This document shows positions 449 through 63,281 of a stretch of 64,000 nt of DNA, in pieces; position 1 is the first letter of the stretch; each line of letters starts with the position of its first letter. A program made the translations under genes and the position numbers. This DNA is from Puia sp. (GTDB taxonomy: Bacteria; Bacteroidota; Bacteroidia; Chitinophagales; Chitinophagaceae): assembly GCA_031292515.1 (NCBI GenBank), contig JARLGZ010000030.1:62001-126000 (forward strand), written 5' to 3'. Under the pieces are notes generated by a model, which was not told where the DNA came from, ran no database searches, and saw nothing but the letters and a program-made list of their open reading frames with translations.

Positions 449-469
449 GTGAATAGTGAACAGTGAGCA
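449..469. repeat. Three degenerate 7-bp tandem units
   Basis: GTGAATA, GTGAACA and GTGAGCA follow each other directly in the gap between the nitrilase and the fucosidase. This is the smallest of the locus-specific tandem arrays in the window. Confidence 0.5.
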
Positions 470-495
470 GAATTTCAAAATATTAAAACACGGAT

Positions 496-2022
496 ATGAA
501 ATCGAAGACTGACCAACAGGTATGCAGGAAGACCAGGATTGGAAGAAGACAAAGACTGGCAGGAGTTTTATTGGGGGCGACACTCTTTTTGGGGAGCGGA
601 GCCACATATTTACAGGCGCAGGAGGGGACACAGCCCCGGGAGAGGTACCAGGCCAATTGGGAGTCGTTAAAGGAATACCAGACGCCGGATTGGTTTCGCG
701 ATGCCAAGTTCGGCATCTTTATTCATTGGGGGGTGTATTCGGTCCCTGCCTTTGGGAGCGAATGGTATCCCCGCAACATGTATGATTCCACCTCCAGTGA
801 ATTCAAACATCACGTAGCGACCTATGGTTCTCAAAAGACGTTTGGTTATAAGGACTTTATACCGATGTTCAAAGCCGAGAAGTTCGACCCCGCCAAATGG
901 GTTGCGCTTTTTAAGAAAGCGGGCGCAAAATATGTGGTGCCGGTAGCCGAGCATCATGATGGATTTGCCATGTACAAAACGAACCTGTCAAAGTGGAATG
1001 CCGTGGAGATGGGACCCAGGCGTGACGTATTAGGCGAACTGGCTACTGAAATCCGCAAACAGGGATTGATATTCGGGTTGTCTTCTCATCGTATCGAGCA
1101 TTGGTTCTTCTTTAATTTCGGGCGCCAGTTTGTTTCGGATGTGCTGGATCCGAAATACGCAGATTTTTACGGGCCAGCCCGCGAGGAGAGCGACGATCCT
1201 TCCTCCGAATTCATGAACGACTGGCTGCTCAGGTGTACAGAGCTGGTGAATAACTATAAACCCCAACTCTTCTGGTTTGATTGGTGGATCGAGCAGCCTG
1301 CCATGGATCCCTACCGGAAGTCTTTTGCCGCTTATTACTATAACAAGGGCCGGGAATGGAACAAGGGAGTGGTGATCAACTATAAATATGCCAAGTCTTA
1401 TCCCGATGGAGTGGCGGTGCTGGATCTCGAAAGGGGCAAGCTGGATGCGGTGCGGGAGCTGCCCTGGCAGACCGATGATGCCGTTGGAGACAGTTCATGG
1501 GGATATGCGGCCGGCAATACTTTCAAATCGGCCCGGTACGTGATCACCAACCTGATCGATATCGTCAGCAAGAATGGAAATCTCCTCCTAAACATCGGGC
1601 CTCGTTCCGACGGAACGATCACCGACGAGGAGACACAAGTGTTGCTGGGGACAGGCAAATGGCTGGACGTGAACGGCGAAGCAATTTATGGTACGCGTCC
1701 CTGGAAGCTGTATGGAGAGGGACCCACCAAATCCGCGAGCGGCGCTTTTGCGGATCAGAAAGTCCCTTTCACGGCCAAGGATATCCGTTTTACCACCAAA
1801 GGGGAGGTCCTCTATGCGACGGCGCTGGGGCTTCCTTCCGAAAAGACCTTTATCCGTTCGCTGGGTGCAAAATCCGGCAATGGCGTGATTGCCGGTCTGG
1901 AGCTGGTCGGCAGTGGCGAGAAGGTGAAATGGGCTCAAAAGGCCGATGCCCTGGTGATTGAGCCCTCGGCTTCCTATCCTTCGGAAAGCGCGGTCGTTTA
2001 TAAGATCAGTTTTAAGAAATAA
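496..2022 (+). CDS. Alpha-L-fucosidase, glycoside hydrolase family 29, secreted
   Basis: This 508-residue protein should remove terminal alpha-L-fucose from glycans by the retaining GH29 mechanism. Residues 21-42 form a signal peptide after a basic n-region, with likely cleavage after LQA. The catalytic (beta/alpha)8 domain starts at about residue 53 with WFRDAKFGIFIHWG. HHDGF at 153-157 is the conserved fucose-binding stretch, and the nucleophile is Asp262 in LFWFDWW. LLLNIGPRSDG marks the end of the barrel. A C-terminal beta-sandwich of about 100 residues follows. The length fits the family. The ATG at 496 is the only start that keeps the full signal peptide. No SusC/SusD pair or ECF sigma factor is visible nearby, so it is not in an obvious polysaccharide utilisation locus here. 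Confidence 0.93.
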   Translation: MKSKTDQQVCRKTRIGRRQRLAGVLLGATLFLGSGATYLQAQEGTQPRERYQANWESLKEYQTPDWFRDAKFGIFIHWGVYSVPAFGSEWYPRNMYDSTSSEFKHHVATYGSQKTFGYKDFIPMFKAEKFDPAKWVALFKKAGAKYVVPVAEHHDGFAMYKTNLSKWNAVEMGPRRDVLGELATEIRKQGLIFGLSSHRIEHWFFFNFGRQFVSDVLDPKYADFYGPAREESDDPSSEFMNDWLLRCTELVNNYKPQLFWFDWWIEQPAMDPYRKSFAAYYYNKGREWNKGVVINYKYAKSYPDGVAVLDLERGKLDAVRELPWQTDDAVGDSSWGYAAGNTFKSARYVITNLIDIVSKNGNLLLNIGPRSDGTITDEETQVLLGTGKWLDVNGEAIYGTRPWKLYGEGPTKSASGAFADQKVPFTAKDIRFTTKGEVLYATALGLPSEKTFIRSLGAKSGNGVIAGLELVGSGEKVKWAQKADALVIEPSASYPSESAVVYKISFKK

Positions 2023-2068
2023 TGGATCTGAGCCGAATACAGTAAGACGCCCGGGTGCAGGGAATGGG

Positions 2069-2108
2069 AAAGGCCGGTAAGAAACGAATCGTTTTTGCCG
2101 GCCTTTTT
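2069..2108 (+). terminator. Rho-independent terminator after the fucosidase gene
   Basis: AAAGGCCGGTAA and TTGCCGGCCTTTTT can pair with one mismatch (stem near 2070-2080 and 2096-2106), followed by a T-run on the plus strand. It lies about 50 bp after the fucosidase stop codon. Confidence 0.75.
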
Positions 2109-2223
2109 GTTATCTCCGGTTCGAGGATCCAGAGGAATGAATCGGGGACAGGTGCCCGATTGTCCAAAAAAAACGACTTACCGGTATACCACCGGGGAGG
2201 AGAAAATCGCCGGCGGGTCTTTA

Positions 2224-2254
2224 ACAAAAAAAGAGTGGTCCGGAGACCACTCTT
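2224..2254 (-). terminator. Rho-independent terminator of the PKD-repeat gene
   Basis: AAAGAGTGGTC (2230-2240) and GACCACTCTTT (2244-2254) form a perfect 11-bp stem with a 3-nt loop. On the minus strand it runs into seven or more T residues, about 35 bp beyond the stop of the minus-strand PKD gene. Between the two terminators (2110-2223) I see nothing else. Confidence 0.85.
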
Positions 2255-2287
2255 TGGGATTATCAATTCTAACAGGTGTTTTCGATG

Positions 2288-5200
2288 TTACTGTTTTATG
2301 AATTTGGATGTGATCCTGTCGCTGCCGATGATCGCCTGCAGGAAGTATGTCCCTTTTGTCAGGTTGGCAATGATGATCTGGTCATCCAACTCGGGGGCCT
2401 GTTTGCTGGCCTCTTTGACATAGAGGAGCCTTCCTGTGATATCAAAGATCCTGTAGGCTACATTTCCGGTCGTATCGGAGATCAGGCGCGTGTTGATCAG
2501 ATCGGTAGCCGGGTTCGGATAGATGATCAGCTGATCCTGCAGGTAAGACCGTTGGGTATTTATCACATTGACAAGTACGGACGCGGTATCCGTGGCGCCC
2601 TTGCCATCCGTAACGGTAAGCAGGAAAACATACTGACCGGAGTTCAGGCCGCTGACCGAAGTCGTTGCCGCGTCTGAGGAAGAAATGGCGGCGGTGGAAG
2701 GTCCGCTGACCTGTTGCCATTCGTAGGTCGTGATGGCGCCTCCTGTCTCGTAGGAATTGCTTCCGTTCAGGGTGGCGGTCGTCGCGGGCGCTGCGATCGT
2801 CGTATCGTTCCCGGCCATGGCGACCGGTACGGCCGCGGCCGCGTTCACGATGATGGTCACCTGGCTGGTGCTGGTAGCGCCGTCGTTATCCGTTACGGTC
2901 AGCTGGAAAACATAGGTACCTGCTTGCAGCCCTACTACGCCTGGCGTAGCGGTATTGGAATTGGTGATGGTGATCGCTCCGGGTCCGGAAATCTTTTCCC
3001 AGGAATAGGAGACGATGGTACCATCGGGGTCGTATGATTGAGAACCATTCAGGGTTACAGTGCTTACAGGCAATGTGATCGTCTGGCTGCTGCCTGCGTT
3101 GGCGACCGGTGGTTGATTGGCCTCGAGGAGGGTGACGATTATCTGGGTCGTCCCCGTTGCGCCAAGATTATCGGTAACAACCAACTGGTAAACATAGTCT
3201 CCCTTTGACAGGTTGGTAATCGTGGTTTTGGCGGCTGCGGGGTCCGTGATCGTTCCTCCTGCCGGACCCGATAATTTGGTCCAGCTATAGGACACGATAG
3301 ATCCGTCCGGGTCGTAAGACTGGGAGCCGTCAATCGTCAGACTGCTTTGCGGCAGGTAGACCGATATGCTGTTGGCGATCGCGACGGGCGGCTGGTCGGC
3401 GGCAGCGCTCACATTTACGATCACTTGTGCCGTTCCCGTAGCACCCTGGTTATCCGTCACCGTCAGCTGAAATACGTACTGTCCCTGTACCATGCCTGTC
3501 ACCGTCGTCGTAGAGGCCGTCGGACTGGTGATAGTCGCGACACCCCCGGATAGTTTGGTCCAGCTGTAGGACGTAATGGTTCCGTCCGGATCGTAAGAGG
3601 CTGTGCCGTCCAGGGTAATCGTATTGACGGGCAGGGTGATGGATTGTGAGGTCGCGCTGGCGATCGGAGGCAGGTGCGGGGCCGCGTTTACGGTAACCCT
3701 GACCTGTGCGCTGCCGGTAGCCCCGTTATTATCGGTCACTGTCAATTGGAATATATAGGTTCCTGCCGTCTGCAAACCATTGATCGTGGGGGTAGCGGTG
3801 GCCGCTCCGGTGATCGTGGCCGTGGCACCTGAGACTTGCGTCCAACTATAGCTGACGATTGTGCCGTCTGGGTCGTAGGAAGCGCTGCCATTCAGGCTCA
3901 CCGAGCTGGTGGGCAGGGTGATGGTCGGCGCCGGGCCGGGGTTGGCCAGCGGCGGCTGGTTGGCTGCGGGGAGAACCGTTACGGTCATATTATCCGTGCT
4001 GGTGGCGCCACCGGCATCCGTGACTATCAATTGGAAGGTATAGACACCTGCCTGCGTTAGGCCGCTCACAGAGGTCGTGATATTGCCTGCGGTCAGTAAG
4101 CCGGCTTGAACCGGGCCTCCGGTTTGGGACCAGGCATAGGAGCTGATGGTTCCGTTGGCATCCGTTGATCCGCTGCCACTCAGGTCGGTAGAGCTTTTCG
4201 GCAGCGTGATGGTCTGATTGGCGCCGGCATTGGCGACCGGAGTGGGAACGGTAGTAGGTGCGTTTACGATCACTTTTACCTGGGCCGAGCCGGTGGCGCC
4301 GAGGTTATCGGTGACGGTCAGCTGGAAGGTATAAGTGCCTGCCTGCAAACCGCTCACGGTGGCATTCGCGGTGGCGCCGCCCGAGATCGTGGCCGCTGCG
4401 CCGCTGACTTCCGACCAGCTATAGGAGGCGATGGTGCCGTCCGGATCGTAAGAAGCACTGCCATTCAGGTTCACCGAGCTGGTCGGCAGGGTGATCGTCA
4501 TGTTACTTCCCGCGTTGGCAACGGGTGGTTGATTGGCGGCAGCATTGACCGTGATTGTCACCTGGTCGGTTGCGGTAGCTCCACTGTTATCCGTTACGGT
4601 CAGCGTGAACACATAGGTTCCCTGTATCAGGCCGGTGACCGTTGTTTTTGCGCTGGTAGCGCTGGTGATGGCTCCGGAAGAAGGACCGGATGCCTGTGTC
4701 CAGCTGTAAGAAGTGATCGTGCCGTTCGGATCGGATGATTGGGATCCGTCGAGGCTGACGCTGCTGGTCGGCAGGGTAATCGTTTGGTTATTTCCGGCGT
4801 TGGCGACGGGCGGCTGGCTGGCCGCACTAACGGTGATGGTCACCGTGGCTGTCGACGTGGCGCCGTTGTTATCGGTTACGGTCAGGGTAAAGACATAGGT
4901 TCCCTGGACAAGGCCGTTGACAATGGTAGTCGCGGAGCCGGCGGCCGTCATCGTGGTGGTTGAGGGGCCCGAGGTCTGAGCCCAGCTATAAGAGGCGATG
5001 GTGCCATCGGGATCGTAGGATCCGCTGCCATTCAGGCTGACGCTACTTGTCGGCAGGACGACTGTCTGGTTGGCGCCTGCATTGGCTACCGGCGGCTGAT
5101 TCGTCGGAGCGTTGACGGTAATCGTCACGGTTGCCGTTGAAGTGGCGCCACTGTTGTCGGTGACAGTCAGTGTGAATACATATGTGCCTTGAACGAGGCT

Positions 5201-7018
5201 ATTCACAACGGTCGTTGCTCCCGTTGGCGTGACGATGGTTCCGGAAGAGGGGCCTGAAGTTTTTACCCAGCTGTAGGAGGCGATGGTGCCATCCGGATCG
5301 GATGAAGCGCTTCCGTTCAGGCTAGCCGTGCTGGTGGGCAGGGTGATAGTCTGGTTGGCGCCCGCGTTCGCGACCGGCGGCAGGTTTGCGGCATTGACGG
5401 TGATCGTTACCGTAGCGTTCGCGGTGGCCCCGCTGTTGTCAGTCACGGTCAATGTAAAAACATAGGTGCCTTTAGCCAGCCCGGTAACCGTCGTCTTTGC
5501 GGCGTTTGCGGTGGTGATGGTCGCGTTCGAAGGCCCCGATGTCTGTGTCCAGCTATAAGAAGCGATTGTTCCATCAGGATCCGTAGACGCGCTTCCATCC
5601 AGGCTTACACTGCTCGTCGGCAGGGTGATAGTCTGGTTGGCGCCTGCGTTGGCTACCGGGGGTTTGTTCGTCGTCGTTCCGGTAGAATATTCCCTGGCGC
5701 CGATATCATATGCGGCTCCCTGCGGGCGGACGATACCGGCAATATCCGTCGTTACGACGGGTTCGGTATAGCCTTTGTCTATCGCAGGGCTGGTCGGCAG
5801 GAGATAGCAATTGGTTTGATCGACGAGGACACTTCCGATCTGGGCGGAGGTATAATATTGATTATTCGAAGTGTCGGGCAGCGGATCGCCTGCGTTCATC
5901 TGGATCATCTTATCCGCCTGGATCTGGAAGGTGTTGAATGATAAGTTGTTGCGGATTTCACATTTGTAACCGGTGAAGGCCCCTACGATCACCATGCAGG
6001 TCGTATAATTATCTGCCTGTGTCTTATTGCCGGAAGTATTATTTAGGACGTGAATATTCCCGCCCGTGCAAAAAGGAGGGGTGGTTCCGGAGGTCAGGGA
6101 GACGGGATCCACGCGCGTGTCAATAGTCCCGTATTGCCAGGAATTGAGATCGATACAATTATATAAATAGCTATCGGCAACACCATCCAGCCCCACGTTC
6201 ACAATCCGCATGATATAGCCATATCCTCCATTCCGGTATATATTGTGCACCCGCGCATTGCCGTAGACCTGGAAGATGCCCACGTCACCCGAGGCATTCG
6301 GCACGGAGCCTGTCACGTTCCAATCATGCGCATCGAGGTGATAGATAGACGCTCCGGCGAGTTCCTGGCCGTTTGAAACGGAGTTGGAGATGATGACGTT
6401 GAAGACGGCAATCGAGTCGATCACGTTCTTAAAATCCGGCGTACTGCCATAACTTCCCTGCATAAGGACACCTGAGCTCGTGAGGCGGATGTTTGCGATC
6501 GCCGTATTCACCAATAGTTTTGTCGAGGGATTCCCGTTGTAGGTAGCCAAGCCGTTGGCTGAGCAGTCAAAGAATTCTCCGACCGATGTATTATCCATGT
6601 TATAGAGTCTCAGACCGGTACACTTGCCCTGGAGAGTGATGGAGGTTCCTGAGCCCTGAAAGTAAAAGCCGTAGGTGATTCCCGCTGCGCCATTCCCTGC
6701 GATGGTGACGCTGGTAAGATTCGAAATCGCCATACCTCCGGTGAAATTTACGAGGCCGCCGTTGTTGATGATGGAAACGCCGTTCAGGTTCGAGAAATTT
6801 GCGCCACTATAGGTTCCCGGTGTAATTGCGATCACGTCGCCGGCGTTGAGACCGTTCATGCTTGTAACAGAAAGGTTTCCGCTTCCGGTTCCAATGACGA
6901 CCGTATTTGCTTTCGCTGTATTAAATGAAAAAAATGAAGATGTTAATAGAAGACAGCAGAAGATAAAAAACCGGGAAGGGCCTAAGCCGGCCTTTTGAGA
7001 GTAAAAATTTACTTTCAT
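2288..7018 (-). CDS. Large surface protein: beta-helix-like N-terminal region, eleven PKD/REJ-like repeats, type IX sorting domain
   Basis: The 1576-residue product starts with a signal peptide (about residues 1-38, hydrophobic FFIFCCLLLTSSFF). Residues 39-440 are rich in Asn/Ile/Val, look like a right-handed beta-helix of the kind found in polysaccharide lyase-like proteins, and end in AYDIGAREY. Residues 450-1487 hold eleven repeats of about 94 residues, each with PPVANAG near the start, (S/A)YDPDGTI-SYSW in the middle and TYVF-LTVTDN-GAT near the end, as in PKD and K319/REJ-type immunoglobulin folds. The last 88 residues contain LIIYPNPATD and end in FIKQ, the type A sorting signal that directs export through the type IX system. 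Its role is inferred as glycan binding or processing at the cell surface; no catalytic residues were assigned. It has its own terminator and no operon partner. Confidence 0.85.
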   Translation of the reverse strand: MKVNFYSQKAGLGPSRFFIFCCLLLTSSFFSFNTAKANTVVIGTGSGNLSVTSMNGLNAGDVIAITPGTYSGANFSNLNGVSIINNGGLVNFTGGMAISNLTSVTIAGNGAAGITYGFYFQGSGTSITLQGKCTGLRLYNMDNTSVGEFFDCSANGLATYNGNPSTKLLVNTAIANIRLTSSGVLMQGSYGSTPDFKNVIDSIAVFNVIISNSVSNGQELAGASIYHLDAHDWNVTGSVPNASGDVGIFQVYGNARVHNIYRNGGYGYIMRIVNVGLDGVADSYLYNCIDLNSWQYGTIDTRVDPVSLTSGTTPPFCTGGNIHVLNNTSGNKTQADNYTTCMVIVGAFTGYKCEIRNNLSFNTFQIQADKMIQMNAGDPLPDTSNNQYYTSAQIGSVLVDQTNCYLLPTSPAIDKGYTEPVVTTDIAGIVRPQGAAYDIGAREYSTGTTTNKPPVANAGANQTITLPTSSVSLDGSASTDPDGTIASYSWTQTSGPSNATITTANAAKTTVTGLAKGTYVFTLTVTDNSGATANATVTITVNAANLPPVANAGANQTITLPTSTASLNGSASSDPDGTIASYSWVKTSGPSSGTIVTPTGATTVVNSLVQGTYVFTLTVTDNSGATSTATVTITVNAPTNQPPVANAGANQTVVLPTSSVSLNGSGSYDPDGTIASYSWAQTSGPSTTTMTAAGSATTIVNGLVQGTYVFTLTVTDNNGATSTATVTITVSAASQPPVANAGNNQTITLPTSSVSLDGSQSSDPNGTITSYSWTQASGPSSGAITSATSAKTTVTGLIQGTYVFTLTVTDNSGATATDQVTITVNAAANQPPVANAGSNMTITLPTSSVNLNGSASYDPDGTIASYSWSEVSGAAATISGGATANATVSGLQAGTYTFQLTVTDNLGATGSAQVKVIVNAPTTVPTPVANAGANQTITLPKSSTDLSGSGSTDANGTISSYAWSQTGGPVQAGLLTAGNITTSVSGLTQAGVYTFQLIVTDAGGATSTDNMTVTVLPAANQPPLANPGPAPTITLPTSSVSLNGSASYDPDGTIVSYSWTQVSGATATITGAATATPTINGLQTAGTYIFQLTVTDNNGATGSAQVRVTVNAAPHLPPIASATSQSITLPVNTITLDGTASYDPDGTITSYSWTKLSGGVATITSPTASTTTVTGMVQGQYVFQLTVTDNQGATGTAQVIVNVSAAADQPPVAIANSISVYLPQSSLTIDGSQSYDPDGSIVSYSWTKLSGPAGGTITDPAAAKTTITNLSKGDYVYQLVVTDNLGATGTTQIIVTLLEANQPPVANAGSSQTITLPVSTVTLNGSQSYDPDGTIVSYSWEKISGPGAITITNSNTATPGVVGLQAGTYVFQLTVTDNDGATSTSQVTIIVNAAAAVPVAMAGNDTTIAAPATTATLNGSNSYETGGAITTYEWQQVSGPSTAAISSSDAATTSVSGLNSGQYVFLLTVTDGKGATDTASVLVNVINTQRSYLQDQLIIYPNPATDLINTRLISDTTGNVAYRIFDITGRLLYVKEASKQAPELDDQIIIANLTKGTYFLQAIIGSDRITSKFIKQ
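2560..5670. repeat. Eleven tandem DNA repeats of about 280 bp encoding PKD-like domains
   Basis: The repeats within the surface-protein gene are similar at DNA level as well as protein level. Short words such as CCATCGGGATCGTA and GGTTATCGGTGACG recur with about 280-bp spacing. Repeats 1-4 (high-coordinate end) resemble each other most, while repeats 6 and 11 have drifted. Such arrays are prone to unequal recombination and to assembly collapse. Confidence 0.8.
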
Positions 7019-7319
7019 AGATATGGATGTTGGTTTTTCGAAAATTGGATTTCACACGAACTAGTCACGTATATCAAATTGTTTGCCAAAATTGTTGTTT
7101 TAAGGGATGGTCAGAGAAAAATATTATACAACCTGGGGGATTTTTACCCCGTATTTTTACTATTTTGACCGCTTCGGTGTGATGTCAAATTTTTTGCCAG
7201 AACGATTGATGTTGAAACAATGTTGATAACATAGAGGTTGCTCACAGAAAAATACGGAGATCTCTCTATTAAAAAGAGGGACTATGTATTAAAAAGCCGT
7301 CGGGCATGGGATTTATGGA

Positions 7320-7419
7320 GAGGGGCAATACCATCATGCGAGGGGCAACACAAGCATGGAAGGGACGATACAATTGATACGGGACAATATAATTTTTGCG
7401 GGGACAGGAGTGGATGAGG
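7320..7419. repeat. Five degenerate units of about 20 bp in the 7019-7525 gap
   Basis: Units begin at 7320 (GAGGGGCAATACCATCATGC), 7340 (GAGGGGCAACACAAGCATGG), 7360, 7381 and 7401. Each starts with a purine-rich GGG-ACA-type core followed by an AT-rich half. The rest of the 507-bp gap between two minus-strand genes is AT-rich from 7019 to 7220 and presumably holds the promoter of the PKD gene. I found no clear TAnnTTTG box there and no ORF that looks real. Confidence 0.55.
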
Positions 7420-8518: not shown

Positions 8519-9343
8519 ATGGAATCTTCAAAAGAATCTTCAGAGCACAGGGAATCTTCAGTCGCAGATTCTTTTACCCGTTTGGTGGGCATCATGGATG
8601 AGCTGAGGGAGAAATGTCCCTGGGACAGGAAACAGACCTTGCAGAGTCTGCGTACGCTGACTATCGAAGAGTTATATGAACTGGCCGATGCGATCACGGA
8701 GACCGACTGGAAAGGCATCCGGGAGGAATTAGGTGACTTGCTGCTTCATATCGTTTTCTATGCCCGTATCGGGAAGGAGCAGGGACAGTTCACCCTGGAT
8801 GAAGTCATCAATGGCGTCTGCGATAAACTGATCGCAAGGCACCCGCACATTTACGGCGACGTGGAGAAACAGGAAGGCCTCGTAAAAGTAACCAGTGAGG
8901 ACGATGTGAAGAAGAACTGGGAACAGCTGAAACTGAAAGAGGGCAAAAAATCGGTGCTGAGTGGTGTTCCGGGGGCGTTGCCGGCGACGGTAAAGGCGAT
9001 CCGGCTGCAGGAGAAATCGGCGCAGGTGGGATTCGAGTGGGAGGTCCCGGAGCAGGTATGGGATAAGGTTAAAGAGGAGATGGACGAGCTGCAGGACGCC
9101 GTTTCGTTGAAAGATCCGGAGAAGATATCGGAGGAGTTCGGCGACCTGGTGTTTTCGTTGATCAATTACGCACGGTTTTTGCACATCGATGCGGAGAATT
9201 CGCTGGAAGGTACTAACCGCAAATTCATCGCCCGGTTCACTTATATGGAGCAGGAGGCCGTGTCACGGGGAAAGAGTTTGGCGGATATGAGCCTGGAGGA
9301 AATGGACAGGATTTGGGGAGACGCGAAGAAACGCGAAAAGTGA
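8519..9343 (+). CDS. mazG: Nucleoside triphosphate pyrophosphohydrolase MazG
   Basis: MazG hydrolyses (d)NTPs, including aberrant ones, to monophosphates and pyrophosphate. The 274-residue protein has two tandem MazG domains. The first carries CPWDRKQTLQSLRTLTIEELYEL and EELGDLLLHIVFYARI, the EExxE-ExxD metal-binding pattern. The second carries EVPEQVWDKVKEEMDELQDA and EEFGDLVFSLINYARF. I choose the ATG at 8519 rather than the GTG at 8492 because AAGGAAAGG sits directly upstream (8508-8516). Residues 1-20 (MESSKESSEHRESSVADSF) are a Ser/Glu-rich extension made by a short tandem repeat and precede the conserved start of the fold. Confidence 0.93.
   Translation: MESSKESSEHRESSVADSFTRLVGIMDELREKCPWDRKQTLQSLRTLTIEELYELADAITETDWKGIREELGDLLLHIVFYARIGKEQGQFTLDEVINGVCDKLIARHPHIYGDVEKQEGLVKVTSEDDVKKNWEQLKLKEGKKSVLSGVPGALPATVKAIRLQEKSAQVGFEWEVPEQVWDKVKEEMDELQDAVSLKDPEKISEEFGDLVFSLINYARFLHIDAENSLEGTNRKFIARFTYMEQEAVSRGKSLADMSLEEMDRIWGDAKKREK
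8522..8560. repeat. Three copies of GAATCTTCA at the 5' end of mazG
   Basis: The 9-bp word occurs at 8522-8530, 8534-8542 and 8552-8560, with a fourth partial copy near 8567. It encodes the ESS tripeptides that open the MazG protein. Confidence 0.7.
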
Positions 9344-13264: not shown

Positions 13265-13286
13265 GAAGGAGGACTGAAGGAGGACT
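13265..13286. repeat. Direct repeat of 11 bp between two convergent stops
   Basis: GAAGGAGGACT occurs twice head to tail in the 28 bp between the stop codons of the kinase and of PolX. Confidence 0.7.
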
Positions 13287-13287
13287 G

Positions 13288-15202: not shown

Positions 15203-15301
15203 CTATTTCTTCTTCGCAGCTTTCTTTGCAGCTTTCTTTTTAGGAGCTGCTTTTTTCTTGGGAGCTGCTTTTTTCTTAGCTGCTTTTTTTGCTGTTGCCA
15301 T
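15203..15301 (-). CDS. Histone H1 tail-like 32-residue Lys/Ala protein
   Basis: An ATG at 15301 opens a 32-codon frame reading MATAKKAAKKKAAPKKKAAP and continuing in the same style to a TAG at 15203. Sixteen of the 32 residues are Lys, 12 are Ala and 2 are Pro. This is the AAKK/AAPKK composition of eukaryotic H1 tails and of bacterial Hc1-like nucleoid proteins, but without any globular domain, so binding to DNA or RNA through charge is the likely role (inference). It has its own strong terminator at 15148-15174 and follows rpmA after about 100 AT-rich bases. A real gene is supported by the start, the unbroken biased composition and the terminator. Confidence 0.75.
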   Translation of the reverse strand: MATAKKAAKKKAAPKKKAAPKKKAAKKAAKKK

Positions 15302-15371
15302 TTTTTTTGAATTTAAATTGGTTAGTAAATCAATTTACAACAGTAAAAATAAAAACTTCTTTGAAACAACC

Positions 15372-20519: not shown

Positions 20520-20889
20520 GGGGGTGCCCGGTTTTGACAGCATAGATCTTTGAAGGTGTAAGCATGCAGTGCATTGGGTAAGCGGCACTTTAATCCCGAC
20601 TACCTAAACTTCAAATGGCAATACTCAGTATGCCATGGCTGCCTAATCAGTGATTAGATAGTCATTAGGGCCGCAGAGCAGGTTCGCCTGTTACCAAGTT
20701 CTGCCGCCGACTCAAAACAAATACAGGATGCTGCGACGGAAGGCTGTGACCGTCGCTTAAGACCATCCAGCTAAGGAGACGATCGGTGTGCCAGGTTCCT
20801 GTCGTCTCCCGACAACCAATGCCGGGATAAGCATGTAGAAAGCTTTCGGCGATTATGTTTGGACAGGGGTTCGATTCCCCTCACCTCCA
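20520..20889 (+). ncRNA. ssrA: Transfer-messenger RNA
   Basis: tmRNA rescues stalled ribosomes and tags the unfinished protein. The acceptor stem pairs GGGGGTG (20520-20526) with CACCTCC (20882-20888), and the T-arm GGGGTTCGATTCCCC lies just before. The CCA end is not encoded. The tag frame begins at the resume codon GGC at 20617 and reads GNTQYAMAA before TAA at 20644-20646, so the tag should be (A)GNTQYAMAA. The ending YAMAA follows the pattern of Bacteroidota tags and supplies the hydrophobic end recognised by ClpXP-type proteases. The 370-nt length is typical. Confidence 0.95.
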
Positions 20890-21084
20890 CAGCAAGAATG
20901 AGTAGTGCCTCCGCCAACAGCGGGGGCATTTTTATTTCTGGGTAGCGAGGCAGACTTGTTTGCCGGAGCAGACAGGAAATTAAAATACCGCACATAGTGC
21001 GGCACTATTCAGTGTTGTTGTCGGCCCCCGCCGGGAACACCGAGTACGGCCGGAGGACGGCGGAGGTAATCCCCTCACCTCCAC
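20876..21084. repeat. 15-bp direct repeat duplicating the tmRNA 3' end
   Basis: TCCCCTCACCTCCAC is the 3' end of tmRNA (20876-20890) and recurs exactly at 21070-21084. The 179 bp between the copies hold a terminator (20906-20935) and no real gene. tmRNA 3' ends are well-known integration sites, so the pair looks like the two ends of a small or mostly deleted insertion. Confidence 0.6.
20906..20935 (+). terminator. Terminator immediately after tmRNA
   Basis: TGCCTCCGC (20906-20914) pairs with GCGGGGGCA (20920-20928), 9 bp with a 5-nt loop, followed by TTTTTATTT. Confidence 0.85.
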
Positions 21085-27873: not shown

Positions 27874-27937
27874 CAAATCTATGTATACTTGCTATCAAAA
27901 CATTAGCAGTAAACAAAAGGTTAGCGGTAACCAATGG
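27874..27937. promoter_or_regulatory. azoR promoter box and repeated operator-like elements
   Basis: On the minus strand TAGATTTG (27874-27881) is a -7 box for azoR. Between it and the HxlR gene lie CATTAGCAGTAAAC (27901-27914), the inverted repeat GGTTAGCGGTAACC (27919-27932) and a third TTAGCA half (27939-27944). The shared TTAGC(A/G)GTAA core makes them candidate HxlR binding sites. Confidence 0.5.
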
Positions 27938-27953
27938 GTTAGCACTCCGGAAA

Positions 27954-37876: not shown

Positions 37877-37937
37877 AAAGACATTATGAGTGATTGCCGT
37901 ATAAGCAATAGGTCTGAGTAATGAAGATATAAATGCC

Positions 37938-38012
37938 AAACGTATAAGTACCAAACTTATAAGTGACAAACGTATGAGCGATAAACATACAAGTGATAAA
38001 GATAGCGAGCAG
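37938..38012. repeat. Five degenerate 15-bp units running across the fdhF start codon
   Basis: Units: AAACGTATAAGTACC (37938), AAACTTATAAGTGAC (37953), AAACGTATGAGCGAT (37968), AAACATACAAGTGAT (37983) and AAAGATAGCGAGCAG (37998). The ATG of fdhF (37974) is created inside unit 3, so the array forms both the 5' untranslated region and the first codons (MSDKHTSDKDSEQ). Confidence 0.85.
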
Positions 38013-41345: not shown

Positions 41346-42779
41346 TTATTTCCAGCCCCCACCCAAATTTGTATATAGCGCGACGATTGCCTGCAGTTGC
41401 TGAAGCCTGTCATCGACTCCCTGGAGTTGGGCAGTTAGCAGGTTTTGTTCGGAGGTGAGGACATCGGTATAGTTTGCTTTTGCGTCGGCTCTCATGAGTT
41501 CTTTTGTGTAGTCCACGGATTTCTGCAGGAAATGGATCTGTTTTGCGCGGGTATGGATTTTTTCGGTTGCAGATTGGTAATCGAAGAGCGCATTCGATAC
41601 TTCCTGTCCGGCCGTAAGCAGGGTTTTTTCAAAGGTCAGCAGGTATTCCTGTTGCTGGCCTTTGGCTACTTCCAATCGTTGACGGTTGATGCCATTGTTA
41701 AAGAGGGGTTGGGTGAGGCCGCCTACCAGGTTGCCGAAGAAGGCCGAGGCGTCGAAGAAATGGGCGAGGTTGCCCGAGGAGAGGCCGCCTTCGCCGGTGA
41801 TCGTGAGGGCGGGATAAAAATAGGTTCTTGCCACGTTGGTGAGTTCTGCATAGTAGCGGAGCTGGAATTCTGCTTCCTGCACGTCGGGGCGGTTGGAGAG
41901 CAGCTGTGCGGGCAGCCCCATGCGAAGGTCTTTGGCCAGGGTCTGGGCTCCGAGGCTATCGCGTGCAATGGCTCCCGGGTTGCGGCCCAACAGGAGACAG
42001 ATCGTATTTTCCGTCTGCCGGATATTCTGCCGGATATCCGGGAGGGTGACTTCCACCGAATACTGGCCGGCCTGGCTCTGCATGACGGCAGCTCCGGTGA
42101 GGACATCGGCTTCCTTCAAAGCCTGCGTCGTTATGACGTCTTCCTTACGGTTTTCGACGGTGGCCAGGGTGATCTGCAATTGCTGGTCATAGGCCAGGAG
42201 GGCGTAGTAGCCGGTGGCTATATTGGAAATGAGTTGAGTTTGAACATCCCGTTTGTAGGCATCGCTTTGCAGCAGGGCCGCCAACTGGGCCTTTTTCGTG
42301 CTGCGCAATTTTCCCCAGAGATCTACCTGCCAGCTGGAATTGAGCCAGGCCTCATAGGTTTGGGTCGAAGGAGTGCCCGGGTTCTTCTGCAGGGAGGCGC
42401 TGGCGTTGGCGTTCAGGCTCGGAAAAAAGGCGAGCTGGCTCTGCCGGAAGTTGGCCGCGGCCTGGTGGATACGTGCAATGGCGATGCCCAGGTCGAGGTT
42501 GCTGCGGAGCCCTTCTTCAATGAGGCGTTGCAGGAGGGTATCGGTGAAGAACTGTTGCCATGGGATATCTGCTATCGTAGTCGTATCGGTGAGGACGGTG
42601 TCGCGATAGAGGCCGTTGCCGGCGAGGTTGGCAGCGCGGTGGTAGGGGCTGGCGACCTTACAGGCGGCCATAAAAAGACAGGCGGGTATAAAAAAACACA
42701 CAGTTATAAAAAGAGGCGCCGAAAAAAGGAGGATCCCTCTCCAAGGCGGGAGGATCTGTTTATGCGGTTTCATCGTCAT
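41346..42779 (-). CDS. Outer-membrane efflux lipoprotein (TolC/OprM/NodT type)
   Basis: The 477-residue protein is the outer-membrane channel of the RND system encoded upstream. After the signal region two repeats of the OMF fold are visible: IARIHQAAANFRQSQLAFFPSLNANASAS, YEAWLNSSWQVDLWGKLR, AQTLAKDLRMGLPAQLLSNRPDVQEAEFQL and GGLTQPLFNNG. The signal region is odd: three tandem hexapeptides LFITVC, FFIPAC and LFMAAC each end in Cys, so the lipidated residue is uncertain (Cys41 in LFMAACK is the best lipobox). Its start overlaps the stop of the pump gene by about 20 bp, so the two are coupled. Confidence 0.92.
   Translation of the reverse strand: MTMKPHKQILPPWRGILLFSAPLFITVCFFIPACLFMAACKVASPYHRAANLAGNGLYRDTVLTDTTTIADIPWQQFFTDTLLQRLIEEGLRSNLDLGIAIARIHQAAANFRQSQLAFFPSLNANASASLQKNPGTPSTQTYEAWLNSSWQVDLWGKLRSTKKAQLAALLQSDAYKRDVQTQLISNIATGYYALLAYDQQLQITLATVENRKEDVITTQALKEADVLTGAAVMQSQAGQYSVEVTLPDIRQNIRQTENTICLLLGRNPGAIARDSLGAQTLAKDLRMGLPAQLLSNRPDVQEAEFQLRYYAELTNVARTYFYPALTITGEGGLSSGNLAHFFDASAFFGNLVGGLTQPLFNNGINRQRLEVAKGQQQEYLLTFEKTLLTAGQEVSNALFDYQSATEKIHTRAKQIHFLQKSVDYTKELMRADAKANYTDVLTSEQNLLTAQLQGVDDRLQQLQAIVALYTNLGGGWK
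42660..42713. repeat. Three 18-bp tandem units in the signal-peptide code of the efflux lipoprotein
   Basis: ACAGGCGGCCATAAAAAG, ACAGGCGGGTATAAAAAA and ACACACAGTTATAAAAAG follow without a gap. On the minus strand they encode LFMAAC, FFIPAC and LFITVC. Confidence 0.9.
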
Positions 42780-47944: not shown

Positions 47945-49189
47945 TCAGTATGGTGATTCTGAAATACCGGCAAGTCTTTCGATCGATTCCGGAAAACGAG
48001 TGCTTCTCATGTCGTTCAATGCCGCGTTGATGAGTGCTTTTGCAAACAGCAACTGGCCTTCCGGAGAAAAAACCGATGATTTGCCGGGATCGGGTGTGTC
48101 TCCCGCGTTTTTTGAATGATGCGCCAGTTTGCACATGAGAATGGCATAGACAAGCCGGCAGACCTGCCGCATGATGAAAAAGCGGGACTGTCGATAGGCG
48201 TCCGGGGGATTGCCGAAATAGGCCGTCAAAAAGAGATCTTCCTGCGTATCGGTGTGTACGAAAAAGATGGCTGCGGTGGCAAGGTCGACATAGCGGTCGT
48301 TCCGGAATGCGGCGTCCCAATCGACGACCCAGGTCTTTTGTCCATCCCATATGATATTGTTCGGGTTGAGGTCATTATGACCGGAGACCCTATCGGGGTC
48401 CTGCCAGGGATAGTGTGTTCTTATCCTGTCATAGTAGTCGAAGCTGTCTTCAAAAATGTCTGTCTCCGGAGGAAGGTGCCGGGCTCCTTCGACGAGTTCC
48501 TCAACGATATGCAACAGGTTTTGTTCTTTCGGAAAAGGGGGCAGTTCATGGATGGAGCGGATGGTCCTGCCAAGTTCATTCAAAAGCCCCTCCTGCGAGG
48601 CAAAGGCTTCCCGCAGGGGTTGTTGGATGACAAAGCCGGTGATCAGCAGGCCTTCCGGTATATCCAGGTAAAAGACCGGGGGCGCCACTCCTGCTTTTGC
48701 GGCGATCTCCAGGCAGGAGAGACTTGGGAGAACCGGCGTCGCAGTCGAAGCCATTGCAGTGGGAGTTGTTGCAATGGAAGCTGTTTCGGTTGGCACTGTT
48801 GCATTGGGAACTGTAGCATCGGGGGATGATGCATCGGGAGAGGATGTGTCGGGAGACGGTATATTGGGATGTGTTGCAACGGGTGCATCCAGTTTTAGTA
48901 CATAGGAATGGCCGTCGACGACGATCTTATATACGGAGGACATGGAAAGTCCGCCGGTCAGGGGTTCGATTTCCGACAATTCGCCGGCTCCGAAAGCCTG
49001 TCTGAGCGCTTTTTCAACTGCGGGTATTCTTTTAGAAGGTATAACGGACTGTAGGATTTGGGATGAGTATGGAATAGATGAGGATGGCATGGGTGAGGAA
49101 GGAACGGATGAGGGTTGAATAGATGGGGGTGGAACGTATGAGGATGACATAGGGGAAGATGGCATGGAGGAAGATGAAGATGATGACAT
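47945..49189 (-). CDS. APH-fold phosphotransferase with two low-complexity pentapeptide arrays
   Basis: The 414-residue protein has the aminoglycoside/choline kinase fold. SVYKIVVDGHSYVLKLDAP holds the strand with the ATP-binding Lys, VSGHNDLNPNNIIWDG the catalytic loop (Asp and Asn) and TWVVDWDAAFRNDRYVDLA the metal-binding Asp. Two segments are foreign to the fold: residues 4-38, a run of pentapeptides such as SMPSS, SIQPS and SVPSS, and about 105-150 (IPSPDTSSPDASSPDATVPN and similar), inserted directly after strand 3 before the helix with CLEIAAKAG. Both arise from 15-bp tandem arrays. The true start could be downstream of the first array (for example Met codons near residue 34). The substrate is unknown; choline or a sugar is as likely as an antibiotic. 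Confidence 0.8.
   Translation of the reverse strand: MSSSSSSSMPSSPMSSSYVPPPSIQPSSVPSSPMPSSSIPYSSQILQSVIPSKRIPAVEKALRQAFGAGELSEIEPLTGGLSMSSVYKIVVDGHSYVLKLDAPVATHPNIPSPDTSSPDASSPDATVPNATVPTETASIATTPTAMASTATPVLPSLSCLEIAAKAGVAPPVFYLDIPEGLLITGFVIQQPLREAFASQEGLLNELGRTIRSIHELPPFPKEQNLLHIVEELVEGARHLPPETDIFEDSFDYYDRIRTHYPWQDPDRVSGHNDLNPNNIIWDGQKTWVVDWDAAFRNDRYVDLATAAIFFVHTDTQEDLFLTAYFGNPPDAYRQSRFFIMRQVCRLVYAILMCKLAHHSKNAGDTPDPGKSSVFSPEGQLLFAKALINAALNDMRSTRFPESIERLAGISESPY
48738..48887. repeat. About ten 15-bp tandem units inside the APH-fold gene
   Basis: Units start at 48738, 48753, 48768, 48783, 48798, 48813, 48828, 48843, 48858 and 48873. Examples are ATTGCAGTGGGAGTT, GTTGCAATGGAAGCT, GTTGCATTGGGAACT, GATGCATCGGGAGAG and GATGTGTCGGGAGAC. 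Period 15 is exact throughout although the units are diverged. Confidence 0.9.
49074..49178. repeat. Seven 15-bp tandem units at the 5' end of the APH-fold gene
   Basis: Units start every 15 bp from 49074: ATAGATGAGGATGGC, ATGGGTGAGGAAGGA, ACGGATGAGGGTTGA, ATAGATGGGGGTGGA, ACGTATGAGGATGAC, ATAGGGGAAGATGGC and ATGGAGGAAGATGAA. The consensus differs from the array at 48738-48887 in the same gene. Confidence 0.9.
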
Positions 49190-49209
49190 AGAGGAGGATT
49201 GAGGGTTTG

Positions 49210-52638: not shown

Positions 52639-52813
52639 ATATCAGAAGTATATCATGTATTAAAGTTGCGATAGGCAAATAGTCCTCCCTCTATAAAGAG
52701 AAACTGTCCTCAGTGGAAGGAGACTGTCCTCAACAGAAAGAGGGGATGCTCAATAGAAAGAGGCTGTCAAAGAGAACAGGCCACAAGGACAAAAGTTCAC
52801 CAGGTGGAAACAA

Positions 52814-52849: not shown

Positions 52850-52879
52850 AGATGACTTTGTGAATCGACGACGATATGG

Positions 52880-52957
52880 ATCAGTGATTGAATGAATCAG
52901 TGATTATGTAAATCAATGACTGTGTGAATCAATGACCCGCGAATCAATGAGGGGTGC
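52880..52957. repeat. Five degenerate 16-bp tandem units next to the SDR stop
   Basis: ATCAGTGATTGAATGA (52880), ATCAGTGATTATGTAA (52896), ATCAATGACTGTGTGA (52912), ATCAATGACCCGCGA (52928) and ATCAATGAGGGGTGC (52943). A different purine-rich array with recurrent ACTGTCC and AGAAAGAGG words occupies 52690-52765. No gene lies in 52639-52978. Confidence 0.85.
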
Positions 52958-57328: not shown

Positions 57329-57406
57329 ATTCAGCAATTTTTTGACTGTTGTTCTTTCCGGCCGTTCTTTGCCGGTTTTCAATTTTTCTCTTTTTATTTC
57401 CCTGAA

Positions 57407-59749: not shown

Positions 59750-59866
59750 CTGGAAAGATTGTATTGGGTTTTGCAATGATCAAAAAAATAAAAATACGGC
59801 TAATTTAGATATCCAGTAGAAGAGGATAGGCCCGGGTTTGAATACTCACAGGGCTTCCCGGAGCAA

Positions 59867-60106: not shown

Positions 60107-60174
60107 TGGCGAAAGGTCAATGAATCCCGCCAAAATATAGTAGTGTTAAAAGACTACATTTTCCGTGTTTTCTA

Positions 60175-60182
60175 TATATTTG
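60175..60182 (+). promoter_or_regulatory. -7 box of a candidate small RNA
   Basis: TATATTTG is a perfect match and is followed by no ORF, but by a strong terminator 140-170 bp later. Confidence 0.55.
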
Positions 60183-60188
60183 CACTGG

Positions 60189-60358
60189 AACAGATTTAGC
60201 GGTTAAGGTGTACGATTTAGTAGCACTTAGAGTCTTTTTGTTTTTACTTAAAGAATGAGGAGTTATTAAGGCTTTGAATTTCCCGAAGAGAGAACGGGAT
60301 CTGAATTAGTAAGCAGGAGTTTGCCGTCTCAGGGCTGCAGCCCGGGGCGGCTTTCTTA
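60189..60358 (+). ncRNA. Candidate small RNA of about 170 nt
   Basis: The segment lies between a perfect -7 box and a strong intrinsic terminator and has no reading frame of note. A hairpin TTCCCG / CGGGAT is possible near 60277-60296. Its size would fit a 6S-type RNA, which Bacteroidota encode, but I could not build the long bubbled helix that 6S RNA needs. It may also be the 5' leader of the DUF4421 gene at 60542. Confidence 0.4.
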
Positions 60359-60360
60359 TT
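60323..60360 (+). terminator. Strong terminator ending the candidate small RNA
   Basis: GCCGTCTC-A-GGGC (60323-60335) pairs with GCCCGGGGCGGC (60340-60351): 12 bp with one bulge, TGCA loop, followed by TTTCTTATTTT. Confidence 0.75.
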
Positions 60361-60434
60361 TTAAGGGCTTTAAGTGATTTAAGCGATTTTTTTGGGGTTT
60401 AAGCGATCCGTTTTTTTGGCTTTCTAGCGATTTC
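60360..60434. repeat. Degenerate TTTAAG units ahead of the DUF4421 gene
   Basis: TTTAAGGGC, TTTAAGTGA, TTTAAGCGATTTTTTTGGGG and TTTAAGCGATCCG with a T-run start at 60360, 60369, 60378 and 60398; a last degenerate copy (TCTAGCGATTT) follows. Confidence 0.65.
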
Positions 60435-60541
60435 CCAATCCGGAGGGATGCGTTTTGAGGGCGGAGGGTTTCGTCTGTTTTTTTGGGGGAAGTTTTTTTC
60501 AGTTTCTGAAACAGGAACGCCTGCAAACGGGTCAATAGAGG

Positions 60542-61564
60542 ATGACCAGGACTCTTTTGCTGATATCCGCGGGCCTGCTGCTTTTGTCTTCGGCAGGGGC
60601 CCAGACCTATTCCGCAGGGCTACCGTCCTACCCGGATCACGATACTTCTTATTACAGGTCTTACAGGGGATCTCTGATGGTCCGGCTGTTCTTTTCCAGG
60701 AACTACAGCTTGTTGAAGCTGGATCCGCCGGGTTCGCTTCCGTTGATGAAATATCACGCGAACACTCCTCTGAATATCGGCGTGGGGTTCACTTATAAAT
60801 ATATTTCGTTCAGTGTCTCCAAAGGTTTGGGTTTCCTGCAATCCGATTCGAAAAAGGGTACCACGCATTCCTTCGATCTGCAAACTCATATCTACAAGCG
60901 AAAATGGTCTTTCGATGCCCTGGCCCAGTTTTACAAGGGCTATTATCTGGGGCAGCCCAACCTGGGACCACCCGGTACCGGCTATTATTTACGGCCGGAC
61001 ATGGCGCTTCATTCCATCGGTGTCACCGCTTACCGGGTGCTGAACGACCGGCATTTCTCCTATGGGGCAGGGTTGTCCCAGAATGCGTTGCAGCAGAAAT
61101 CCGCGGGTTCTTTTTTGATTGGCGGGAATGTCTTTTATACGGCCGTCAATGGCGACAGTTCCCTGGCGCCTTATGAGGTCGACACGCTGTATGACAAAGC
61201 GAATATCCGGAAGCTGCATTTGTTCGAGATCGGGCCCGGCATCGGGTATGCCTATACCTTTGTCTATCGTACGCATTATTTTGCATTGGGCTCCGTGAAT
61301 GCGAATTTCGATGCCTATTTCTCCAGGGAGATCGGCAATGGGGTCCGCAAAGACCGTATCGGTTTCTCGCCGAATTATATCCTGCGTTTCGGGGCGGGTT
61401 ATAATGCCAATAAGTGGGGAATCAGCGCCTTATGGTTTACCGGCGGCGTGCACACAAAAGGAGAGTCTTCCGGATACCAGTATACGATGACCCTGGGCAG
61501 CTACCGGCTGCAATATGTCAGGCGTTTCGGGATCGGCCGCCGGATGAAAAGGATTCTTGAATAG
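60542..61564 (+). CDS. DUF4421 family outer-membrane protein
   Basis: The 340-residue protein has a clear signal peptide (LLLISAGLLLLSSAGAQ) and a mature part made of alternating beta-strands rich in aromatic residues, as in small outer-membrane barrels. MVRLFFSRNYSLLKL, GVGFTYKYISFSVSKGLGF, the repeated FSYGAGLSQNALQQKSAGSFLIGGNVFYT and SPNYILRFGAGYNANKWG are typical of DUF4421 proteins of Bacteroidota. The function is unknown. It ends with a basic tail (RRFGIGRRMKRILE). The gene is preceded by 180 bp of repeat-rich sequence. Confidence 0.8.
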   Translation: MTRTLLLISAGLLLLSSAGAQTYSAGLPSYPDHDTSYYRSYRGSLMVRLFFSRNYSLLKLDPPGSLPLMKYHANTPLNIGVGFTYKYISFSVSKGLGFLQSDSKKGTTHSFDLQTHIYKRKWSFDALAQFYKGYYLGQPNLGPPGTGYYLRPDMALHSIGVTAYRVLNDRHFSYGAGLSQNALQQKSAGSFLIGGNVFYTAVNGDSSLAPYEVDTLYDKANIRKLHLFEIGPGIGYAYTFVYRTHYFALGSVNANFDAYFSREIGNGVRKDRIGFSPNYILRFGAGYNANKWGISALWFTGGVHTKGESSGYQYTMTLGSYRLQYVRRFGIGRRMKRILE

Positions 61565-61641
61565 GGATTTAATGGCTAATTAATTTCTTAGCGGGTGGTC
61601 TCAATGCAATAGCTCCTACATTTATGGGAAAATTGCATATG

Positions 61642-62619
61642 GACTATATCAGATTCGGGAGTACCGGCATGACGGTATCGAGGTTGTGTCTGGGTACGAT
61701 GACTTACGGAAAGCCCACGGAACGGTGGCCCTGGGCATTGGATGAGGAGCAAAGCCGGCCTTTTATAAAAAAGGCGCTGGAGGCGGGCATCAATTTCTTC
61801 GATACGGCGGATGTCTATACGGCGGGTGCGAGCGAGGAGGTGGTGGGTCGTGCCTTACGCGATTTCGCGAAGCGGGATGAGGTCGTGCTGGCTACAAAGG
61901 TCTTCAACCCGATGGGACCCGGGCCTAATGACCGGGGGCTTTCGAGAAAACATATCCTGAGTGCCATCGACGCGAGCCTCAGGCGTCTCGGGACCGATTA
62001 TGTCGATCTCTATCAGATCCATCGCTGGGACTATCATACACCCATCGAGGAAACGATGGAAGCCCTCCATGACGTGGTAAAATCCGGGAAAGCCCGGTAT
62101 ATCGGCGCTTCGTCCATGTATAGCTGGCAGTTCGCCAAGGCATTGTATACCGCGGATCTTCACGGATGGACCCGCTTTGTCTCCATGCAACCCCACTATA
62201 ACCTCGTTTACCGCGAAGAAGAGCGGGAGATGATCCCTTTCTGCATCGATCAGAAGGTAGCCGTTATTCCGTGGTCCCCGTTGGCCAGGGGCCTGTTGAC
62301 CGGTAAGCGATCGAAACAATGGAATGAGACGGAGCGGGCGAAGACCGATGCCTTTGGCAAAGGGCTTTATGGGGCGGATTCCGATTTTGACGTCGTAAAC
62401 CGTGTAGCGGAAATAGCCTTGCAAAAGGGCATCCCCGACGCCCAGGTAGCGCTGGCCTGGATATTGCATAAATCCGGCATTACGGCGCCCATCATCGGCG
62501 CCAGCAAGCCCGGACACCTCGAGGATGCTGAAAAAGCTTTGTCTGTGAAGCTGAGTGAAGAAGAGATCCGCCGGCTGGAGGAGCCGTACAAGCCGCATGG
62601 CGTGCTTGGCTTTCAATAA
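61642..62619 (+). CDS. Aldo/keto reductase
   Basis: The 325-residue NADPH-dependent enzyme belongs to the YajO/YghZ-like AKR group. MDYIRFGSTGMTVSRLCLGTMTYG starts the barrel; NFFDTADVYTAGASEEVVGRAL has the catalytic Asp and Tyr, LATKVF the Lys and YQIHRWDYHTPIEETMEAL the His. IPWSPLARGLLTG and APIIGASKPGHLEDA close the cofactor site. The start 61642 is preferred over 61624 because TACATTTA at 61617-61624 looks like a promoter -7 box overlapping the earlier ATG. Confidence 0.93.
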   Translation, partial: DYIRFGSTGMTVSRLCLGTMTYGKPTERWPWALDEEQSRPFIKKALEAGINFFDTADVYTAGASEEVVGRALRDFAKRDEVVLATKVFNPMGPGPNDRGLSRKHILSAIDASLRRLGTDYVDLYQIHRWDYHTPIEETMEALHDVVKSGKARYIGASSMYSWQFAKALYTADLHGWTRFVSMQPHYNLVYREEEREMIPFCIDQKVAVIPWSPLARGLLTGKRSKQWNETERAKTDAFGKGLYGADSDFDVVNRVAEIALQKGIPDAQVALAWILHKSGITAPIIGASKPGHLEDAEKALSVKLSEEEIRRLEEPYKPHGVLGFQ

Positions 62620-62742
62620 CAACAGGCGCCGGTCGTCAGGAAATTCCTTCCATTCGGCAAAAAAAACGGGGCATCCGGGTAAAAAAACGTAAATTATGTG
62701 GTAAATAATTTTCAGGGTGTCTCTTCTAAAAATACCTGGTTT

Positions 62743-63207
62743 ATGGCATCTATCACGTTGACGGTTAATAAAAAGAAATATACCATCGAAGCCGATCCCC
62801 AAATGCCGCTGCTTTGGGCGATCCGGGACATCGTCGGTTTGAAGGGTACGAAATTTGGGTGTGGAATGGCCCAGTGCGGCGCCTGCACGGTCCACCTGGA
62901 TGGGGAAGCCGTGCGTTCCTGCGTGACCCTGGTCGGCAGGGCAGAAGGGCAGGAGATCGTGACCATCGAGGGTATCTCGGACGACAACTCCCACCCACTG
63001 CAAAAGGCCTGGATCGAATTCCAGGTTCCGCAATGCGGGTATTGCCAGTCGGGGCAGATTATGTCGGCGGCTGTATTGCTCCGCGAGAATCCGCATCCTA
63101 CCGACAGAGACATAGACGAAGCCATGATGGGCAACCTCTGTCGTTGCGGGACCTATACCCGTATCCGGAAAGCGATCCATCGTGCCGCGGAGATCATGAA
63201 CGCCTGA
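62743..63207 (+). CDS. 2Fe-2S small subunit of a molybdenum hydroxylase (IorA/CoxS type)
   Basis: The 154-residue protein carries two 2Fe-2S clusters. The plant-ferredoxin-type cluster uses [20 protein letters not shown] and the Cys in VRSCVTL; the second uses [12 protein letters not shown] and [12 protein letters not shown]. It passes electrons from the large molybdenum subunit encoded next. The start is the ATG at 62743 ([15 protein letters not shown]). A third (FAD) subunit is not present in the window, as in isoquinoline 1-oxidoreductase-type enzymes that use a quinone or cytochrome acceptor. The stop codon lies inside a tandem array. Confidence 0.94.
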
Positions 63208-63281
63208 GATCCCGAACCCCTGAGATCCCGAATGCCGGGATCCTGAATGCTTAAAATTCCGAACGCTTAGGATTGTGAATG
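63203..63281. repeat. Five degenerate 15-16-bp tandem units overlapping a stop codon
   Basis: CCTGAGATCCCGAACC (63203), CCTGAGATCCCGAATG (63219), CCGGGATCCTGAATG (63235), CTTAAAATTCCGAACG (63250) and CTTAGGATTGTGAATG (63266). The stop codon TGA of the 2Fe-2S subunit (63205-63207) lies in the first unit; the large-subunit gene starts 15 bp after the last. Confidence 0.9.

Follow-up and report, generated by a model that had tools for sequence, protein, structure and literature searches.

Worn tandem repeats and a stop-anchored heptamer family in the genome of a Puia bacterium

Bacterial heptamer repeats have long been known and are still unexplained; the STRR heptamers of filamentous cyanobacteria, for instance, are dispersed intergenic arrays. 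Here we describe worn tandem arrays in a 64,000-nucleotide stretch of Puia sp. (GenBank assembly GCA_031292515.1, contig JARLGZ010000030.1, positions 62,001 to 126,000; C148:62001-126000 of genome G000 in our labels), referred to as the window, and in the 7.34 Mb genome (285 contigs) to which it belongs, where a heptamer of consensus GAGTRGT recurs at the ends of genes. The closest described systems include the long simple-sequence repeats with units of 5-11 nt, among which heptamers are reported as commonest, slippage is proposed as the cause and periods in coding DNA tend to be multiples of three (Mrazek 2007, in the summary given by PMC4679880). The GGGNATC heptamers of Xanthomonas and Nostoc are dispersed in intergenic DNA within 50 bp of stop codons, on the coding strand, and are rare between divergent genes; the available text reports no preference of the Xanthomonas repeats for the leading or lagging strand (Rehm 2015, PMC4692102). 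TAACTGA heptamers are described from Beggiatoaceae, Cyanobacteria and five Bacteroidetes, sporadically across phyla; in the genome chiefly studied most of them directly precede start codons (MacGregor 2015, PMC4679880).

Arrays were detected as ungapped self-matches at lags of 6-40 (+1/-0.9, threshold 16), with eight blocks of control lags and 10 dinucleotide shuffles as controls. The window contains 10 arrays, against 0, 0, 1, 0, 0, 0, 0 and 0 in the control blocks and 0 in each of the 10 shuffles, a density above that of shuffled sequence, as an original prediction made from the sequence alone had supposed; Tandem Repeats Finder (TRF) at its lowest threshold returns 45 rows. In an earlier comparison, arrays per 100 kb numbered 15.6 in the window and 28.2 in the rest of its contig, against 4.8 in Mucilaginibacter, 3.3 in Flavobacterium and 0.6 in Chitinophaga. 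The comparison with congeners is based on C148, C28 and C33 (1,064 kb; 6 of the 36 stretches of C28+C33 come from a set picked for heptamer matches), which hold 89 (C148) and 119 (C28+C33) arrays, against 1.25 and 3.25 at control lags. Outside the 7/8-mer class, non-coding arrays number 34 in 39.8 kb of non-coding DNA in C148 (86 per 100 kb) and 51 in 93.6 kb in C28+C33 (54 per 100 kb), while 19 congeners (727 kb, 12-92 kb each, 95 kb of it non-coding) have 7, in G012, G015 and G044. The 7/8-mer class itself (22 in C148, 19 in C28+C33) reaches equal or higher density in G044 (23), G015 (11) and G042 (9), several stretches of G044, G021 and G015 having likewise been chosen near heptamer matches. 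The excess of worn tandem repeats is real and genome-wide, and private, locus-specific arrays of non-coding DNA are concentrated in this genome. Assembly artefact or chance is a very improbable source of it. Perfect GAGTAGT runs do lie within 35 bases of contig ends (C143:4-129, C198:34-89), so long arrays disturb the assembly and the longest may be missing from it; however, the control lags and shuffles, the location of arrays inside a 351-kb contig, the in-frame arrays inside genes and a heptamer orientation that tracks GC skew (see below) all argue against an artefact.

The periods of the arrays differ between coding and non-coding DNA. In 735 kb of this genome, 51 of 68 coding arrays have a period that is a multiple of three, compared with 20 of 65 private non-coding arrays, which bears out the predicted filtering of coding periods by the reading frame. 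The accompanying claim that 16 and about 20 bp dominate outside genes does not hold, the commonest period there being 7 and the 65 private arrays being spread broadly, mostly over 11-20 bp. The heptamer family makes up 40 of the 105 non-coding arrays, 30 of them at lag 7. Among 47 non-heptamer arrays (coding ones included), similarity is higher between units two apart than between those three apart (0.615 vs 0.572, P = 1.4e-5), which supports the proposal of slippage followed by drift. An APH-family gene (47945-49189, minus strand) carries two in-frame arrays, and both fall in stretches without a match in homologs. Matches were found in nine other genomes; eight consist of two pieces, from residue 39-49 to 100-105 and resuming at 152-161, with 3-48 bases of DNA between them, and the ninth, in G008, is one weak piece. 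To judge from these alignments, the homologs lack both arrays, which supports growth of arrays inside a gene.

The arrays are probably the result of replication slippage and short tandem duplications, followed by drift and filtered by selection. If both processes were frequent during replication in this lineage, the arrays would represent their standing crop, and point mutation would then wear the units. Frame-breaking units would survive outside genes, mostly multiples of three would survive inside them, and almost anything would be tolerated right after a stop codon. The one slippage-prone heptamer, which reads TRGTGAG in the stop-codon register, has stop codons in every forward frame and, because of this, would be harmless at a gene end when sense-oriented, or would replace the stop; a G-rich strand in the leading position would favour its growth. 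We infer slippage as the cause, selection as the filter and any reason for the recurrence of this unit.

The statement that the arrays do not form a dispersed repeat family is wrong at the scale of the genome, over which the GAGTRGT heptamer is spread. The 14-mer GWGTRGTGAGTRGT occurs 134 + 94 times, and a 21-mer with at most two mismatches 533 times, compared with 25 times in 4 of the 32 other genomes of the genus. Exact 21-mers number 111 and are present in 13 of 395 phylum-sampled genomes, this one included, the next highest counts being 31, 5 and 4. The commonest units are GAGTGGT (119), GAGTAGT (93) and CAGTAGT (27); the reversed-pattern control for the 14-mer and 21-mer counts lacks independence, as GAGTGGT read backwards is one of its own cyclic forms. 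This genome has 61 clusters in the 1.535 Mb covered; the set of stretches drawn from it numbers 75, the window included, of which 20 were chosen near heptamer matches, so that densities are raised there. The unit also recurs far outside the genus. In a viral collection, a 24-mer of the family was found in 41 stretches (L367-L407, near-duplicates among them), whereas two scrambled units gave 5 and 4, and the stretches with a heptamer array have 40-70% GC. A sense open reading frame (ORF) lies within 250 bp upstream of 20 of the 46 clusters there, 14 of these at -22 to +28 nt of the ORF end; the other 26 have none, and the stop rule described below is not established for that collection.

Could such a family have been copied from one locus to another, through template switching, gene conversion or the action of a reverse transcriptase, with TAG or TGA stops that look like the unit as seeds, the private arrays being a separate matter? 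A single consensus shared by 61 clusters (1.54 Mb) is what such copying would explain, and the genome has four reverse-transcriptase matches. The stops used at the clusters are TAG in 26 cases, TGA in 14 and TAA in 3, as against 344, 368 and 441 for all ORFs, but TAG and TGA are contained in the unit, which partly forces this usage. Moreover, no strong flank is shared beyond the unit itself (GRTGAAGA follows a few arrays, by eye), and we regard copying between loci as unlikely. A mobile element with shared flanks was rejected on the same ground. Chi- or KOPS-like words were rejected as well: the fourteen cyclic words are near expectation outside arrays, where the strand bias of GAGTGGT (31 vs 9) resembles the expected one (26 vs 7.5).

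The stop-anchored heptamers are the most interesting part of the material and are only partly explained. With genes called by a simple longest-ORF rule, a sense ORF ends within 250 bp upstream of 43 of the 61 clusters (18 have none), and 37 of these 43 start within 20 nt of the stop. Among 40 arrays in gaps between tandem genes, 23 lie within 15 nt of the stop and 2 within 15 nt of the next start, and no heptamer array was found in divergent gaps (62 and 65 gaps). Stop distances are partly forced, since the forward unit stops every frame and any ORF entering an array must end; two sets of orthologs are a cleaner test. The first set concerns a protein of 707 residues, judged aldolase/dehydrogenase-like by eye without a family search. 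Its 28 orthologs whose stop is visible all terminate at the same residue, and a GAGTRGT array is present in 0 of the 27 with sequence past the stop; one further match is cut by a contig end, and the G042 ortholog carries AT-rich heptamers of its own past the stop. For a 327-residue protein (sugar-nucleotide decarboxylase-like by eye), 0 of 29 orthologs have a GAGTRGT array and six have another array within 300 nt. Thus, at these two genes, the native C terminus is kept and the stop carries a GAGTRGT array only in this genome. In 29 stop-anchored arrays of at least six units, mismatches per unit average 0.78 in the half near the stop and 1.27 in the far half (P = 0.002); part of this gradient can come from the hard wall that the coding region forms.

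A functional 3'-end element kept by selection, such as an all-frame translation stop, an mRNA binding site or a Rho-type signal, would fit the sense-oriented placement at stops, the preference for stops over next starts and the cleaner units next to the stop. Against it, the arrays are not conserved at the same genes in relatives, and their orientation also follows the replication strand, which plain mRNA function does not ask for; we therefore find such an element quite improbable. Eubacteria, to go by the title of one study, reportedly give no evidence of selection for extra 3' stops.

The leading strand is taken here as the sign of GC skew, not from a mapped origin. In contigs with clear skew, the G-rich strand of the heptamer is the leading strand in 42 of 46 clusters (P = 5e-9), three of the four exceptions lying in C33 and the other in C98 (1 to 1). 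Orientations are mixed (+6, -9) in C137, C143 and C209, low-skew contigs that were sampled in part and could be rearranged or near the terminus. Tandem gene pairs are commoner on the leading strand (128 vs 63, and 166 vs 89), consistent with this reading of the skew. In the discovery set, heptamer arrays were found at 24 of 189 leading-strand 3' ends and 1 of 124 lagging-strand ones (P = 6e-5). A held-out set of 800 kb, fetched once the idea existed, comprises 40 stretches, 36 of which have clear skew; orientation agrees there in 9 of 10 cases. Private arrays likewise have a leading-strand GC skew of 0.354, compared with 0.115 in other non-coding DNA, and pooling their polarity with the held-out set (40/53) gives 85/109 (P = 0.014), which is weak support. 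A rather doubtful extension is that stop-anchored arrays lengthen outward from the native stop where a gene is transcribed in the direction of the replication fork, for example if the fork resumes on the transcript where an RNA polymerase is terminating. Such growth, if true, would link tandem duplication to the termination of transcription and to the direction of replication, and the older, worn units would be displaced away from the gene.

Several observations weigh against slippage and selection as the explanation. One unit common to tens of separate loci is hard to obtain by independent slippage, and the heptamers of C33 are oriented 3 to 3 despite clear skew. The 3'-end contrast is not significant in the held-out set (leading 7/234 vs lagging 1/157, P = 0.15), and the polarity of private arrays by sign is weak (44/55, null 0.67, P = 0.04). 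The rise in coding arrays is mild, at 82 in about 930 kb of coding DNA compared with 36 in about 632 kb of congeners. In addition, no repair defect was found, because both MutS and an SbcC-like protein are present. Loss of mismatch repair was rejected since MutS_I is found in 31 of 33 genomes, this one included, and the longer open frame of its MutS merely reads upstream of the conserved start (part of a 20-protein alignment). Loss of SbcC was rejected too: the SbcC-like protein scores 167.6 bits, a value under the curated cut-off, which none of the 33 genomes reaches, and is clearly present in only two of the 33, here (C28:393068-396766) and in G007 (C14:293474-297160), the others giving at most 29.8 bits. 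The special error-prone copying system once envisaged did not appear in a search aimed at MutS, SbcC and reverse transcriptases only.

Inverted copies are a feature of some congeners. An inverted copy follows most non-coding arrays in G015 and a minority in G044, G042 and G021, and in two-armed arrays of congeners the units differ along one arm, yet pair with the other; this could reflect selection on the stem or else copying from arm to arm by template switching. Long intergenic stem-loops with heptamer or octamer arms occur in G015 and G044 (L044:8421-8511, L044:4647-4750, L199:8474-8625, L200:1475-1643, L193:14974-15051). In the genome under study, hairpins or REP-like palindromes were rejected for most arrays: when the 56 non-coding arrays from the window and its contig are matched to their inverted surroundings, scores are 4-20, with similar controls for most. 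The 75 stretches contain six inverted heptamer pairs, and in L183, L184 and L186 a called sense gene is found at only one arm.

Within the window (Table 1), seven of the eleven sites originally listed pass on their own, those at 449 and 60360 are borderline, and 8522-8560 and 13265-13286 are not above chance; the lag detector adds three arrays. Most have a private consensus, as was claimed, except that 444-470 is, by eye, a worn relative of the genome-wide heptamer. This array begins 1-8 nt past the end of ORF 38-436, which has no Pfam match and may not be a gene, and the exact 14-mer that represents the family is absent from the window. For the MazG protein, matches in 31 other genomes start at residues 17-26, except in G009 (10) and G042 (57). 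An Rfam search of the window gave a transfer-messenger RNA gene (20520-20892, plus strand) as sole match, so the arrays of the window match no known RNA family. The window also encodes a large surface protein (2288-7018, minus strand) that combines 11 PKD-like domains with a type IX secretion tail, and the first-ranked named relative by the molybdopterin gene is a metagenome-assembled genome labelled Puia dinghuensis (stretch L051).

Table 1. Arrays and candidate arrays of the window, with detector scores unless stated otherwise
Feature	Position	Listed as	Strand	Period	Score and remarks
Worn heptamer array GAACGGT GAATAGT GAACAGT GAGCAGA	within 437..470	449	+		13.7, borderline
Private non-coding array	7318..7373	7320		20	18.9
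GAATCTTCA words, unevenly spaced; claimed array at MazG gene	8522-8560				10.0, not above chance
Exact 11-bp duplication in 28-base gap between ends of two convergent genes	13265..13287				TRF 46; detector 12.1, not above chance alone
Array	15206..15309	added		18	31.7; no minus-strand ORF of at least 40 aa there
Private array	27894..27943	added		18	18.7
Array across start codon (37974) of molybdopterin oxidoreductase gene	37900..38004	37938	+	15	35.6; Pfam Molybdopterin
In-frame array near N terminus of outer-membrane efflux protein gene	42660..42714		-	18	21.8; Pfam OEP
In-frame array, APH-family protein residues ~101-151	48735..48885		-	15	45.9; Pfam APH
In-frame array, same protein residues ~4-39, extending beyond its start	49061..49203	49074	-	15	41.3
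Private non-coding array	52688..52768	added		20	23.7
Private non-coding array	52851..52936	52880		16	30.1
Short array upstream of 60542 gene	60360..60431			9	15.3, borderline
Array across stop codon of [2Fe-2S] protein gene 62698-63207	63188..63238	63203	+	16	21.7; Pfam Fer2_2

In sum, the excess, the frame filtering and slippage followed by drift survive from the original prediction, while its denials of a dispersed family and of any named system do not. In the open-licence part of the literature we found nothing on the GAGTRGT unit, on replication polarity of such repeats in the genus or on Puia repeats. Clusters that are sited at stops and mostly oriented with replication, beside the empty sites of relatives, make the slippage hypothesis testable as to polarity, seed and growing end. 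They also caution that, in lineages of this kind, the length of intergenic DNA and some inserts in proteins may be slippage debris. The STRR heptamers are set apart by description, being of another phylum and other units. As far as the available texts go, these arrays are of the known kind of heptanucleotide and long simple-sequence repeats, with which they share heptamers as the commonest class (here beyond chance), slippage as the proposed cause and coding multiples of three; most arrays here, however, are too worn to count as simple repeats, private units of 11-20 bp occur at high density, and the heptamers are anchored at stops and show a replication polarity. TAACTGA, too, is an intergenic heptamer that stops every forward frame and is spread sporadically across phyla, but its unit is another, and the GAGTRGT arrays lie near stops (23/40 within 15 nt) rather than starts (2/40). 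With GGGNATC they share dispersed intergenic heptamers near stops on the coding strand, scarce between divergent genes; unlike GGGNATC, whose G-quadruplex criterion is G-tracts of three or more, the commonest GAGTRGT units have no such tracts, and 42 of 46 clusters are co-oriented with replication, whereas the Xanthomonas repeats reportedly lack such a preference.

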